A stretch of DNA of 64,000 nucleotides from NCBI RefSeq assembly GCF_016461955.1, contig NZ_JADMNM010000002.1:248001-312000 (forward strand). Direction: 5' to 3'. Position 1 is the stretch's first letter, and each line of letters starts with the position of its first letter. Shown piece by piece: positions 2,715 through 15,782 of the stretch. A program made the translations under genes and the position numbers. The notes beneath the pieces are model-generated. The model was not told the origin of the DNA. It saw nothing but the letters and a program-made list of their open reading frames with translations, and ran no database searches. The stretch is from Qipengyuania sp. YIM B01966 (lineage in GTDB: Bacteria; Pseudomonadota; Alphaproteobacteria; Sphingomonadales; Sphingomonadaceae).

Positions 2715-3185
2715 TCAGTCCTGCTTGGTCAGGACGTAATCCTTGGCCATCGCGCCGGTGACTTCCGCACCCCCTTCGCCAAGGCGGCTCAGTTGCCCTT
2801 CGCCGACCTTGTAGGCCGCGCCATCGGCGGCATCGTCGAGCGTGATTATGCTGCCATCCGCGCTCCAGGTGAACTTGCCGGTCACCGGGGCCATCGTGCC
2901 CTCGGCCTGCTCGCGATAGGTTTCCTCGAGCGTGTAGGTGCCATTGTCGGCCAGCGTCAGCACCGTGTCGATGCCGGGGCACGAGGCGCAGGGCAGCGTG
3001 CCGATGTAGCGGCCGGCCCAATCGACCGAATTGCGCGAATTGTGCGCGCCGTCGGGCGCCGGAGTAGCTGCGGTGGCCGCCGTGGTCGCGGCCGGTTCGA
3101 CCGGCGCGGTTGGCTCAGTCGGCGCCTGCTGGCACGCGGCGAGCGCGGCAAGGGTGATCAGGCTGACGGTAGCGGGCAGACGCAT
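2715..3185 (-). CDS. NlpE N-terminal domain lipoprotein
   Basis: A 156-residue predicted outer-membrane lipoprotein. The signal peptide ends in LAALAAC, with the lipidated Cys at about residue 18, followed by a low-complexity Ala/Thr/Pro linker. The folded part carries YIGTLPCASCPGID, the CxxC-containing signature of the copper-resistance/NlpE N-terminal domain. E. coli NlpE is a surface and copper stress sensor, but this short form lacks the second domain, so only the domain name is safe. The chosen ATG at 3185 is the one directly before the signal peptide; the frame continues upstream without a plausible start. It lies downstream of sdhA on the same strand, where sdhB would be expected in many relatives. 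Confidence 0.8.
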   Translation of the reverse strand: MRLPATVSLITLAALAACQQAPTEPTAPVEPAATTAATAATPAPDGAHNSRNSVDWAGRYIGTLPCASCPGIDTVLTLADNGTYTLEETYREQAEGTMAPVTGKFTWSADGSIITLDDAADGAAYKVGEGQLSRLGEGGAEVTGAMAKDYVLTKQD

Positions 3186-3275
3186 GCAATATCTCCGATG
3201 ACGATGGGCGAGCAATACGGGCAGCAGACCCGCCGATCTTGACAGCATCATGACGCCAGGCCTTTGGCCGCCGGC

Positions 3276-5910: not shown

Positions 5911-6021
5911 GATCTTGAGGGTCCTCACGGGCGTGACGTGCCCATCCCCTAAGCGGCGCTGCCGCAAGGCGCAAGCCGTGCCCGCTCGACAATCGCCGCG
6001 TGGCTGGCCTAGGTGGCTAGG

Positions 6022-6729
6022 ATGACCACCATCCTCCTGACAGGCGCCTCGCGCGGGATTGGCGCAGCGGCGCGCACCACGCTGGCGGCGCGCGGCTGCA
6101 CCGTCATCGGTCAGTCCACCGCCGGCGGCGACGGGCTGCTGGCGGCCGATTTCACCGAACCTGCCGCGCCCGGCCAGCTGTGGGACGCAGCGCTGGAGCA
6201 GGCGGGCGGCAGCGTTGACGTGCTGGTGAACAATGCCGGTCTGTTCCGCGCAGCGCCGCTCGACATGGCCGATGCCGAGTGGTCCGCCGCCTGGGGCGAG
6301 ACGCTGCGGATCAATCTGGACAGCGCGGCCGAACTGTCGCGCCGCGCTGTGCGGCACTGGCAGCAGCGCGGCAGCGGGGGGCGGATCGTCCATGTCGCCA
6401 GCCGCGCGGGCCATCGCGGCGATTCGCCCGCACACTGGCATTACGCCGCCAGCAAGGGCGCGATGCTGGCGCTGCACAAGACCATCGCCCGCGCCTATGC
6501 GGCCGAAAACATCCTCAGCTTTGCGATCACCCCCGGTTTTACCGACACGGCGATGGCGGACGATTATCTCGCCAGCCGCGGCGGGCCGGGCCTGCTGGCC
6601 GACATCCCGCTGGGCCGCGTTGCCACGCCGGAGGAGATTGCCGGCATCATCGCCTGGTGCGCGCTCGACGCCCCGCCCAGCCTGACCGGCGCGACGCTCG
6701 ATGCCAATGGGGCCAGCTATGTTCGCTAG
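6022..6729 (+). CDS. SDR family oxidoreductase
   Basis: A 235-residue short-chain dehydrogenase with a GASRGIG cofactor loop, an NNAG motif and a YAASK catalytic pair after a Ser. The C-terminal half (PGFTDTAMADDY, then TPEEIAGIIAWCA) is like 3-oxoacyl-ACP reductase-type SDRs. The substrate cannot be read from the sequence. A GTG lies three codons upstream (6013), but AGGTGG at 6011-6016 is best spaced for the ATG at 6022. Its last codons overlap the start of the beta-lactamase gene by 11 bases, so the two are probably co-translated with prmA behind them. Confidence 0.85.
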   Translation: MTTILLTGASRGIGAAARTTLAARGCTVIGQSTAGGDGLLAADFTEPAAPGQLWDAALEQAGGSVDVLVNNAGLFRAAPLDMADAEWSAAWGETLRINLDSAAELSRRAVRHWQQRGSGGRIVHVASRAGHRGDSPAHWHYAASKGAMLALHKTIARAYAAENILSFAITPGFTDTAMADDYLASRGGPGLLADIPLGRVATPEEIAGIIAWCALDAPPSLTGATLDANGASYVR

Positions 6730-7624
6730 ACGGAGTATCACCGCCGCCGCTGCGCTGGCGCTGGTGGCCGGGTGCACCACGACCATGCCCGCCGCGCCCC
6801 CACCCGACCCTGCGCCGGCTCAGCGCGCCTTTGCCGCCAGCTGCACCGATTTCGACGAATGGGACAAGCCCGCCCCGCCCTTCCGGCTGCATGGCGACAC
6901 CTACTACGTCGGCACCTGCGGGATCGCGGCGCTGCTCATCACGGATGCGCGCGGCCACACGCTGATCGACAGCGGCACCGACCGGGGCGCCGAAGTGGTG
7001 CTGGCAAACATACGCGCGCTCGGCTTCGACCCGCGCGATGTGACCACCATCCTGATGAGCCACGAACATTTCGACCATGTTGGCGGCCTCGCGCGCGTGC
7101 AGGCGGCCACCGGCGCGACGATTGCCGCGACCGCGCCCGCCGCCGCCGTGCTGCGGACAGGCATCACCGCCGAGGACGATCCGCAGGCGCAGTCGGGCCA
7201 TGACGCCTTTCCGCCCGTCACCGGCCCGATCCGCCTTATCGATCCCGCCGGCGCGCAGGGGCGGTTCACGCCGATCGCCACGCCGGGCCATACGCGCGGC
7301 GCGCTGAGTTGGCGCTGGCAGAGCTGTGAGGCGGGCGTGTGCCGGTGGATCGTTTATGCCGACAGCATGAACCCGATCAGCGATGACCACTATCGCTTCA
7401 GCGACCATCCCGGTCTGGTGGCGGTATTCCGCGCGGGCATCGCCGCGCTGGCCGCCAGCCCGTGCGATATTCTGATAACGCCGCACCCCGGCGGCTCGGC
7501 GCTGCGCCGCCGGTTGCTGGGCGAAGCGCCGCTGGTGAACCCAGATGGATGCCCCGCCTACGCCGCCAGCGTCACCAGCCGGCTCGATGCGCGCCTCGCC
7601 GAGGAGGCCGCCCGTGCCCGATAG
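6719..7624 (+). CDS. Subclass B3 metallo-beta-lactamase, predicted lipoprotein
   Basis: A 301-residue zinc hydrolase of the B3 metallo-beta-lactamase group, which hydrolyses penicillins, cephalosporins and carbapenems in the periplasm. Zinc ligands are visible as SHEHFDH (His115, His117, Asp119, His120), TPGHTRG (His191) and TPHPGG (His256), so both metal sites look complete. YADSMNPIS matches the B3 signature. The N terminus is a signal peptide ending in LVAGC with a lipobox Cys at residue 19, so the enzyme is predicted to be membrane-anchored. The ATG overlaps the end of the SDR gene, and the 3' end overlaps prmA by 11 bases. No beta-lactamase regulator is nearby. Activity on a given drug is not shown by the sequence. 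Confidence 0.88.
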   Translation: MFARRSITAAAALALVAGCTTTMPAAPPPDPAPAQRAFAASCTDFDEWDKPAPPFRLHGDTYYVGTCGIAALLITDARGHTLIDSGTDRGAEVVLANIRALGFDPRDVTTILMSHEHFDHVGGLARVQAATGATIAATAPAAAVLRTGITAEDDPQAQSGHDAFPPVTGPIRLIDPAGAQGRFTPIATPGHTRGALSWRWQSCEAGVCRWIVYADSMNPISDDHYRFSDHPGLVAVFRAGIAALAASPCDILITPHPGGSALRRRLLGEAPLVNPDGCPAYAASVTSRLDARLAEEAARAR

Positions 7625-8525
7625 CTGGAAATTACGCACCGCGATCATCTCCAAACCCGCTGCCCACGCGGCGTTGCTGGCGCATGAGGAGGCGGCGGAC
7701 TGGCCCGAGGACTGGGTGCTGACCGGGATGGAGGTGGCCGACGACCGCCCTGACGAGTGGACGCTCGAACTGTTCCTGCCGGCAAAGCCCAAAGCTGCCG
7801 ACACGGCGCGGCTGGCGGCGCTGTTTGCCAGCCCGCCGCCCGCCATCACCGCCGAACGCATCGCCGCGCAGGACTGGCTGACGCTGAGCCAGCAAGGGGT
7901 CGATCCGATCCGCGCCGGACGCTTCCATATCCGCACGCCGGAGCACCCGCCCTTGCGGCAGCCGGGCGTGGTCGATCTTGCGATTCCCGCCTCGCAGGCG
8001 TTCGGCACCGGCCAGCACGCCACCACCGCGGGCTGCCTCACCATGCTGGAGGCGATGCGCCGGCGCGGTATCGTGGTGCGCAACCTGGCCGATATCGGCA
8101 CCGGGACGGGGCTCTTGGCCTTTGCCGCGCTGGCGCTGTGGCCGCGCGCGCGGGCGACGGCGAGCGATATCGACCCGGTCTGCGCCGGCGTTGTGGCGGA
8201 TAATGCCGCGCTCAACGCGCTGGCGCTGGGCAGCGGGCCGGGCGCGACGCTGATGCTGGTGGCCGATGGCATGGCTGACCCGCTGCTCGCCGCGCGCGGG
8301 CCCTATGATCTCCTGATCGCCAACATCCTCGCCGGCCCGCTGATCGCGCTGGCACCCGATTTCGCCGACGCAGTCGCGCCGGGCGGGCAGGTGCTGCTGG
8401 CCGGCTTGCTCGAAACGCAGGAGGCGGAGGTGCGCCGGGCCTATCGCCGCGTTGGTTTCACGCTGGTGCGCCGGATGGTGCGCGGCGACTGGGCGATCCT
8501 GTGGCTGCGCCGGCGGCGGATTTGA
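7614..8525 (+). CDS. prmA: Ribosomal protein L11 methyltransferase
   Basis: A 303-residue SAM-dependent methyltransferase that trimethylates ribosomal protein L11. Family signatures seen are FGTGQHATT, then DIGTGTGLLAFAA (SAM motif I), ASDIDPVC and the NILAGPL catalytic segment. The N-terminal substrate-recognition domain is of the short alphaproteobacterial type. The GTG at 7614 is preceded by GAGGAGG and overlaps the beta-lactamase gene by 11 bases; upstream in-frame ATGs lie deeper inside that gene and are unlikely. Confidence 0.92.
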   Translation: MPDSWKLRTAIISKPAAHAALLAHEEAADWPEDWVLTGMEVADDRPDEWTLELFLPAKPKAADTARLAALFASPPPAITAERIAAQDWLTLSQQGVDPIRAGRFHIRTPEHPPLRQPGVVDLAIPASQAFGTGQHATTAGCLTMLEAMRRRGIVVRNLADIGTGTGLLAFAALALWPRARATASDIDPVCAGVVADNAALNALALGSGPGATLMLVADGMADPLLAARGPYDLLIANILAGPLIALAPDFADAVAPGGQVLLAGLLETQEAEVRRAYRRVGFTLVRRMVRGDWAILWLRRRRI

Positions 8526-14886: not shown

Positions 14887-15732
14887 TCAGCCGGCGGTGG
14901 CCGCCGGGGCGGGCGTGGCACTGGCATTGGGCGCATGGCGCTGCACCAGATCGTAGGCTTTCTGATACCACTCGCTGCCCGGATAATTGGCGCCCAGCAC
15001 CGCGGCATAACGGACCGCTTCGGCCGGGACGCCGAGCGCCAGGCTGCTTTCGGTCAGGCGATAGAGCGCCTCGGCCGCATGGCTGGTAGTCTGGTAATTC
15101 TCGACCACGTTCTGGAAGCGCAGTTGCGCGGCGATCCAGCGGCCCGAGCGCTGGTAGAAGCGGCCGATCTCCATTTCCTTGCCGGCGAGGTGATCGTTGA
15201 CCAGGTCGAGCTTCAGCCGCGCATCGGCGGCATATTGCGTGTTGGGGAACCGGCGGACCACCTCGGTCAGCGCGGTGCGCGCCTGTTCGGTGATCTTCTG
15301 GTCGCGGGTCACATCGCTGATCTGCTCGTAATAGCTGAGCGCGATCAGGTAATAGGCATAGGGCGCGTCGCGGTTGCCCGGGTGGATCGACAGGAACCGC
15401 TGCGCGGCCTGGACCGATTTGTTGTAATCGCGCGCCAGATAATGGCTGAACGCGGCCATCAGCTGCGCCCGGCGGGCCCAAGGCGAATAGGGGTGCTGGC
15501 GCTCGACCTCGCCGAAAAGTTCTGCGGCGACCTTGGGCTGGCCCCGGTCAAGCCGGCTGCGCGCCTCAGCATAGAGCGTTTCGACATCGCGGGCGACGTA
15601 ATTGGTGTCGCGCACCGCATCGCCCCCGCCGCGCCCCGCGCAGGCCCCGAGCAGGAGCGTCGAGGCAGCAATTCCGGCGACCAGGCCGGTGCGGAGAGTG
15701 CCCGTGCGGGCGGGTGCGAGAGGCGTCAGCAT
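14887..15732 (-). CDS. bamD: Outer membrane assembly lipoprotein BamD
   Basis: A 281-residue TPR lipoprotein of the beta-barrel assembly machine at the inner leaflet of the outer membrane. The signal peptide ends TLLLGAC. The TPR region includes LYAEARSRLDRGQPKVAAELFGEVERQHPYS and repeated YY-containing helices typical of BamD/ComL. The ATG at 15732 is chosen over one 12 codons upstream because it gives a normal signal peptide. It is the first gene of the bamD-recN-(lipoprotein)-ligA run. Confidence 0.93.
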   Translation of the reverse strand: MLTPLAPARTGTLRTGLVAGIAASTLLLGACAGRGGGDAVRDTNYVARDVETLYAEARSRLDRGQPKVAAELFGEVERQHPYSPWARRAQLMAAFSHYLARDYNKSVQAAQRFLSIHPGNRDAPYAYYLIALSYYEQISDVTRDQKITEQARTALTEVVRRFPNTQYAADARLKLDLVNDHLAGKEMEIGRFYQRSGRWIAAQLRFQNVVENYQTTSHAAEALYRLTESSLALGVPAEAVRYAAVLGANYPGSEWYQKAYDLVQRHAPNASATPAPAATAG

Positions 15733-15782
15733 GGCCCGCCCTATAGGGAAGCTACGGCTGAACGCCAAGTGAAGCTTTGCCG

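Follow-up and report, generated by a model that had tools for sequence, protein, structure and literature searches.

The question raised by this locus is whether a chromosomal metallo-beta-lactamase of subclass B3 is anchored to the membrane as a lipoprotein. The gene lies within the window, by which we mean the whole 64,000-nucleotide stretch of Qipengyuania sp. YIM B01966 analyzed here (contig NZ_JADMNM010000002.1, positions 248,001 to 312,000). An initial annotation had described its product, here called P0001, as a B3 enzyme with all zinc ligands and a signal peptide ending in LVAGC, had presented lipidation as unusual for this subclass, and had taken the gene to be resident rather than recently acquired. 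Overall, the analyses make it likely that P0001 is the product of a resident chromosomal gene, is lipidated at Cys19, is tethered to a membrane, and hydrolyzes beta-lactams in the periplasm. The open reading frame has no internal stop and encodes 301 amino acids with the N-terminus MFARRSITAAAALALVAGC-TTT. The gene and the sites that identify its product are:

6719..7624, forward strand: subclass B3 metallo-beta-lactamase gene, 301 amino acids (NF033105, 245.9 bits against a cut-off of 240; best Foldseek match, 6mfi)
6812..7621, forward strand: mature B3 domain, residues 32 to 301 (sequence and profile matches, AlphaFold2 model, Foldseek)
7061..7078, forward strand: zinc ligands H115, H117, D119, and H120 in the motif HEHFDH (conserved in 130/130)
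7289..7291, forward strand: zinc ligand H191, corresponding to BBL His196 (conserved in 130/130)
7484..7486, forward strand: zinc ligand H256, corresponding to BBL His263 (conserved in 130/130)

P0001 is very probably a subclass B3 metallo-beta-lactamase, as judged from its ligands, its match to NF033105 (the curated NCBIfam equivalog model for the subclass), and its predicted fold. Relatives were drawn from 397 genomes of the same family, with at most five first-look candidates scored per genome; some match at an E value of ≤1e-3 was present in 325 of these, many of them weak. The best matches (E value, ≤6.3e-65) formed the set of 130 sequences used throughout, P0001 included (L001-L030 and L082-L181). 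The HXHXDH...H...H ligands and Ser216 were invariant across this set, and Gln156 was present in 129 of the 130. The AlphaFold2 model, built from alignment A1 of 22 window and locus proteins, had a mean predicted local distance difference test (pLDDT) value of 89.0 and a predicted template-modeling (pTM) score of 0.86. Foldseek aligned it with 6mfi (TMt, 0.93), 6auf (0.90), AIM-1 (0.91 to 0.92), and SMB-1 (0.91), consistent with a B3 fold, and the closest solved structures by sequence were likewise 6mfi, 6auf, and AIM-1. The sole match at an E value of ≤1e-3 in the strain's own genome (2.44 Mb, 43 contigs) was P0001 itself. An alternative in-frame ATG at position 6701 was rejected as the start codon because the family-wide start corresponds to 6719, which gives an 11-nucleotide overlap with the stop codon of the upstream SDR gene in 112 of 119 genomes; the lipobox is kept with either start.

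Several B3 enzymes of Erythrobacter and Qipengyuania have been named (EAM, ECM, EFM, EVM, and ELM, attributed to Girlich 2012), EAM being named after Erythrobacter aquimaris (PMC10740994). Among the best 25 of 47 matches listed for P0001, scores against the family models, given as bits over cut-off, were 293/610 for EFM, 289/640 for ECM, 288/550 for SAM, 267/640 for MIM, and 265/660 for EAM, and neither an EVM nor an ELM model appeared. Since the best of these listed matches reached 293 bits against cut-offs of 550 to 675, P0001 lies outside the EAM, ECM, EFM, MIM, SAM, AIM, and PJM families. Three of its relatives, L049 (Qipengyuania aquimaris JCM 12189), L050, and L055, exceeded the EAM cut-off of 660 with 749, 752, and 732 bits, respectively, and each carries the lipobox IAA-Cys17. 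Erythrobacter aquimaris and Qipengyuania aquimaris are names that we take to denote one species.

The predicted export and anchoring features of P0001 precede the B3 domain:

6719..6772, forward strand: predicted lipoprotein signal peptide, residues 1 to 18 (MFARRSITAAAALALVAG; sequence pattern)
6773..6775, forward strand: TGC codon for the lipobox Cys19, which is predicted to be lipidated and to begin the mature protein (sequence and conservation)
6776..6811, forward strand: low-confidence tether, residues 20 to 31 (TTTMPAAPPPDP), preceding the first predicted helix (residues 32 to 41; AlphaFold2 pLDDT)

The N-terminus reads MFARRSITAAAALALVAG-C19-TTT, and the ending LVAGC described in the initial annotation is indeed present, as the lipobox L-V-A-G-C19 (VAG-Cys19). 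It follows a basic n-region (R4 and R5) and an uncharged h-region, with Cys19 inside the allowed range of residues 15 to 35; the consensus applied was [LVI][ASTVI][GAS]C, as in PMC10920655. The pLDDT values were ∼46 to 54 in the three blocks covering residues 1 to 30 and 91 in the block of residues 31 to 40, so that the model suggests ∼12 flexible residues between Cys19 and the B3 domain. The signal peptide also passes a PS00013-like pattern. Cys19 was kept in ≥90% of the 22 sequences in alignment A1, and all seven rows of the clade to which P0001 belongs carry a lipobox, even though their signal peptides diverge elsewhere.

P0001 contains seven cysteines, at residues 19, 42, 67, 203, 208, 249, and 278. 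Disulfides are described at Cys40-68, 206-212, and 253-282 in MIM-1 and at 43-68, 206-211, and 252-281 in SAM-1 (PMC7392888), structures 6AUF and 6MFI, respectively. Alignment with MIM-1, a check proposed in the initial annotation, and with SAM-1 placed the six later cysteines of P0001 on these three disulfides. Because these six pair by homology, Cys19 is left unpaired, and its candidacy as a disulfide partner was dismissed. Within alignment A1, Cys42, Cys208, Cys249, and Cys278 were invariant and Cys203 was kept in ≥90%; the Cys42 column held Cys in 106 of the 130 family sequences and 22 gaps, the gaps being ascribed to trimmed ends. The strain's own genome also encodes lipoprotein machinery, with Lgt (226.3 bits), LspA (124.6 bits), Lnt (263.3 bits), and LolA (73.0 bits) each above the family cut-off. 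The residue at position +2 after Cys19 is Thr20, which would favor the outer membrane if the E. coli +2 rule extends to alphaproteobacteria. Elsewhere in the window, a BamD/YfiO protein (14890-15768, reverse strand; 161 bits), from a family established as outer-membrane lipoproteins, has a similar N-terminus, LLLGAC, which by analogy may be counted in favor of lipidation of P0001. An NlpE-domain protein (2718-3251, reverse strand; 80 bits) has a lipobox-like N-terminus.

Across the family, the strict lipobox pattern was found in 83 of the 130 sequences, and a relaxed rule marked 89, left 36 unmarked, and found 5 without a start. Such calls could reflect a chance resemblance, since the signal peptides of this family are short and rich in Ala and Leu, that of P0001 being alanine-rich and Cys-containing, and a single Cys easily lands behind a small residue. 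A control in which residues 7 up to 30-45 were permuted 500 times with composition kept was applied to the 125 sequences in which our rule identified a start (thus without L010, L012, L106, L109, and L140). Lipobox calls in the permuted sets averaged 8.8 (standard deviation, 2.7) and never exceeded 18, against the 89 observed, and the lipobox Cys lay at residue 16 to 18 in 68 of the 89. The lipobox frequency therefore exceeds chance, and a fortuitous look-alike is a most improbable explanation. None of the 89 lipobox-positive sequences had Asp at +2. In B3-like relatives from records titled Mycobacterium sp. and Mycobacteroides sp. (L057, L058, and L059; 39 to 43% identity), VAGC or TAGC likewise follows a short, basic stretch resembling a signal peptide.

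Several points weigh against an anchored B3 enzyme. Both lipobox rules were of our own making, and a few calls (e.g., L131 and L151) are unconvincing on inspection; the NF033105 score of P0001 exceeds its cut-off by only 6 bits; and about a quarter of the family has no lipobox Cys (coded as absent in 33 of the 130 and as ambiguous in 9). Conservation of Cys19 thus holds in the clade of P0001 and in most of alignment A1, and fails for about a quarter of the family. The members without Cys mostly occupy the same genomic slot, and their number means that the anchor is dispensable for the role of the gene across the family. An alternative reading is that signal peptidase I cleaves P0001, whose alanine-rich c-region offers several sites compatible at −3/−1, and that P0001 is an ordinary soluble periplasmic enzyme with Cys19 lost or left as a free thiol. 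The presumably soluble relatives without a usable lipobox Cys indicate that the enzyme can work unanchored. However, a canonical lipobox stands at the usual distance (Cys at residue 14 to 22 in 88 of 89), it is kept across the clade despite divergence of the signal peptide, and Lgt, LspA, Lnt, and LolA are present, all of which make processing by signal peptidase I improbable. Lipidation at Cys19 is preferred.

The B3 gene is interlocked with its neighbors by two short overlaps:

6022..6729, forward strand: SDR oxidoreductase gene (PF13561/PF00106; GTG at 6013 as an alternative start)
6719..6729, forward strand: 11-nucleotide overlap between the end of the SDR gene and the beginning of the B3 gene (same length in 112/119 genomes)
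7614..8525, forward strand: prmA, GTG start (PF06325, 148 bits)

The tight overlap reported in the initial annotation was borne out on both sides, as the B3 stop and the GTG of prmA also share 11 nucleotides (7614-7624). With distance limits of our choice (≤400 nucleotides for SDR and ≤500 for PrmA), the B3 gene is directly preceded by an SDR relative in 122 of the 130 cases and directly followed by a PrmA relative in 121, with both present in 113. The overlap between SDR stop and B3 start was exactly 11 nucleotides in all but 7 of the 119 genomes in which both ends could be placed, own included, which argues for an old resident gene. Among those 112 genomes, the SDR stop codon was TAG in 66, TAA in 44, and TGA in 2. 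Read in the B3 frame, TAG plus a purine encodes Arg4 and TAA plus a purine encodes Lys4. Residue 4 is Arg or Lys in each of the twelve commonest sets of first four residues, which cover 94 of the 112 and leave the other 18 outside; one basic residue of the signal peptide is thus provided by the overlap.

Seventy-two genomes of the family draw had no B3 match, and the 20 of these listed by name were searched for PrmA. It was found in 19, with no B3 match at any of the 19 loci. An SDR gene in the same direction lay within ∼1.5 kb upstream of PrmA in 14 of the 19 (in L199 as a partial match) and was not seen in the other 5. At 5 of the 14 loci (L198, L201, L204, L210, and L213), the SDR stop and a possible PrmA start again share 11 nucleotides; ∼600 to 640 nucleotides separate SDR and PrmA in L202 and L205. 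The B3 gene therefore looks like a present-or-absent module, gained or lost between two similar 11-nucleotide junctions. Its conserved SDR and prmA neighbors differ from the variable context and mobile elements expected of a mobile gene. No close match to P0001 was found in 72,556 plasmid records (nine matches, the best at 51%), and 4 of 50,697 phage records gave weak matches (35 to 42%), two of the four being Salmonella genome contigs. One phage record, MT839258.1 (4.7 kb, Bacteriophage sp., human feces), has 42% identity to P0001 and may be mislabeled bacterial DNA. The earlier view of a resident chromosomal gene rather than a recent acquisition thus held.

The history of the anchor was followed on a quick LG+G4 tree built from the mature domains (142 rows; no mixture or bootstrap; unrooted; 53 of 139 inner branches starred as well supported). 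In the main coding, 88 sequences had a lipobox, 33 had none, and 9 of the 130 were ambiguous (L097, L106, L109, L122, L129, L131, L140, L157, and L172). Parsimony required at least 15 changes of state, of which starred branches forced 7, whereas labels shuffled on the same tree required a mean of 29, with none of 500 shuffles as low as 15. The minimum became 14 when the doubtful L151 was also omitted, and it was 13, again with 7 forced, under a stricter coding (82 against 31, with 17 rows left out); these counts come from parsimony on a quick tree, which may overcount and whose stars are less trustworthy. The lipobox state is thus heritable enough to cluster yet repeatedly changed, and the clade of P0001 is itself starred. 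On this unrooted tree the changes may be gains or losses of the anchor; it seems that the anchor came or went several times while the gene kept its chromosomal slot.

The gene, its ligands, the lipobox, the overlaps, their conservation, and the presence of Lgt, LspA, Lnt, and LolA can be read from the sequences. In the mechanism that we infer for P0001, which extends to lipidation, choice of membrane, zinc occupancy, translational coupling, and substrate, the B3 protein is probably cotranslated with the upstream SDR gene and prmA and would be exported by Sec. Lgt would place diacylglycerol on Cys19, LspA (signal peptidase II) would cut before this residue, and acylation by Lnt would follow. 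The ∼12-residue flexible stretch would then tether P0001, probably to the inner leaflet of the outer membrane, where a di-zinc site in the periplasm could hydrolyze beta-lactams as they enter. By analogy with NDM-1, for which vesicle release and protection under zinc scarcity are reported (PMC12326980), the same benefits may perhaps apply.

Beta-lactam hydrolysis by P0001 is suggested by its relatives. SAM-1/MIM-2, MIM-1, and AIM-1 all have measured beta-lactamase activity, and MIM-1 and SAM-1 also hydrolyze homoserine lactones (PMC7392888), so that a lactonase role is possible. The native function could then be the hydrolysis of other cyclic esters or amides, with beta-lactams as a side activity, and the interlocking of the gene with SDR and prmA has the look of housekeeping. 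Against this, LMB-1, which the tree places within the family, hydrolyzed every beta-lactam tested apart from aztreonam and cefepime, and its clinical producers were carbapenem resistant (PMC7855592). A different native substrate is accordingly considered unlikely, although clearly less so than cleavage by signal peptidase I, and a beta-lactamase is favored.

LMB-1, a carbapenemase, resembles P0001 in being a B3 enzyme with 51% identity over 82% of P0001. It differs in being plasmid-borne and mobile, in Enterobacter and Citrobacter, and no SDR or PrmA gene was adjacent to it or among the features listed in the surrounding 14 kb, for which the gene table is incomplete. From the AMRFinder start (L081:1372-2286), LMB-1 has the lipobox LAG-Cys25; the start of the deposited coding sequence, at 1426, falls within the signal peptide. 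Among 396 genomes drawn at the level of the order, the best matches listed for LMB-1 had ≤62% identity over most of its length and lay in this family. A sphingomonad origin, considered from these matches and the place of LMB-1 in the tree, was rejected given its recent source, Rheinheimera pacifica (99%; PMC7855592, PMC7782503). The place of LMB-1 in the tree, which gives no direction at this point, therefore reflects shared ancestry only. LMB-1 is described as unpurified owing to difficulty of expression (PMC7855592), which a lipid anchor might help to explain. If LMB-1 is lipidated, NDM would not be the only clinically important membrane-anchored metallo-beta-lactamase. A wider reading is that the B3 enzyme of this family is mostly a lipoprotein, in a present-or-absent slot between two look-alike 11-nucleotide overlaps of an SDR-prmA operon. 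The anchor would have switched at least 7 and probably at least 13 times; as the catalytic residues stayed fixed meanwhile, tethering would be a repeatedly selected trait, and LMB-1 would then be a lipidated clinical B3 enzyme. We put this combined reading forward tentatively and give it somewhat less than an even chance.

According to PMC12326980, which cites Gonzalez 2016, lipoboxes occur in all three subclasses, "resulting in membrane-bound proteins"; in that cited study, as stated in PMC10920655, 43 other metallo-beta-lactamases were predicted to be lipoproteins. Since B3 lipoboxes are already in print, the prediction for P0001 is not new in kind. Nor is predicted lipidation peculiar to P0001, as the EAM-family enzymes and LMB-1 also carry lipoboxes. 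The initial annotation was thus supported in predicting a lipoprotein and less so in presenting this as unusual, given the 89 family sequences and three EAM-family members that share the feature. Among metallo-beta-lactamases, experimental characterization as lipoproteins was confined to NDM variants until 2024 (PMC12326980), and the later cases CIM-1, CIM-2, and CJO-1 are all B1 enzymes (PMC12326980, PMC10920655). No paper on the lipoboxes of Erythrobacter B3 enzymes was found in a literature search whose reach left out most subscription journals, and the words "lipoprotein," "lipid," and "membrane" do not occur in the 2023 B3 review PMC10318434. The family-wide lipobox pattern, with its natural anchored and unanchored relatives, may be new. 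If P0001 is lipidated, B3 would join B1 among lipoprotein metallo-beta-lactamases, with anchored and unanchored forms in one orthologous slot. These relatives are natural paired controls on the effects of anchoring (zinc starvation, vesicle export, and periplasmic concentration), and P0001 is of moderate interest because lipidation of a B3 enzyme becomes directly testable with them.

Compared with known systems, P0001 shares its B3 fold and ligands with L1, AIM-1, and SMB-1, which are soluble enzymes not known to carry a lipobox. The EAM family is similar in subclass, host group, and lipobox, and its members L049, L050, and L055 adjoin SDR and PrmA relatives. MIM-1 (6auf) and SAM-1/MIM-2 (6mfi) are the best matches in sequence and fold, with three disulfides and a Gln157 equivalent, and differ in having been studied as proteins without signal peptides; the word "lipoprotein" occurs 0 times in PMC7392888. 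NDM-1, CIM-1, CIM-2, and CJO-1 are lipobox-bearing metallo-beta-lactamases to which the same idea of an anchor applies, and unlike P0001 they belong to subclass B1, use a different ligand set, and have had their membrane location examined by experiment (PMC12326980, PMC10920655).
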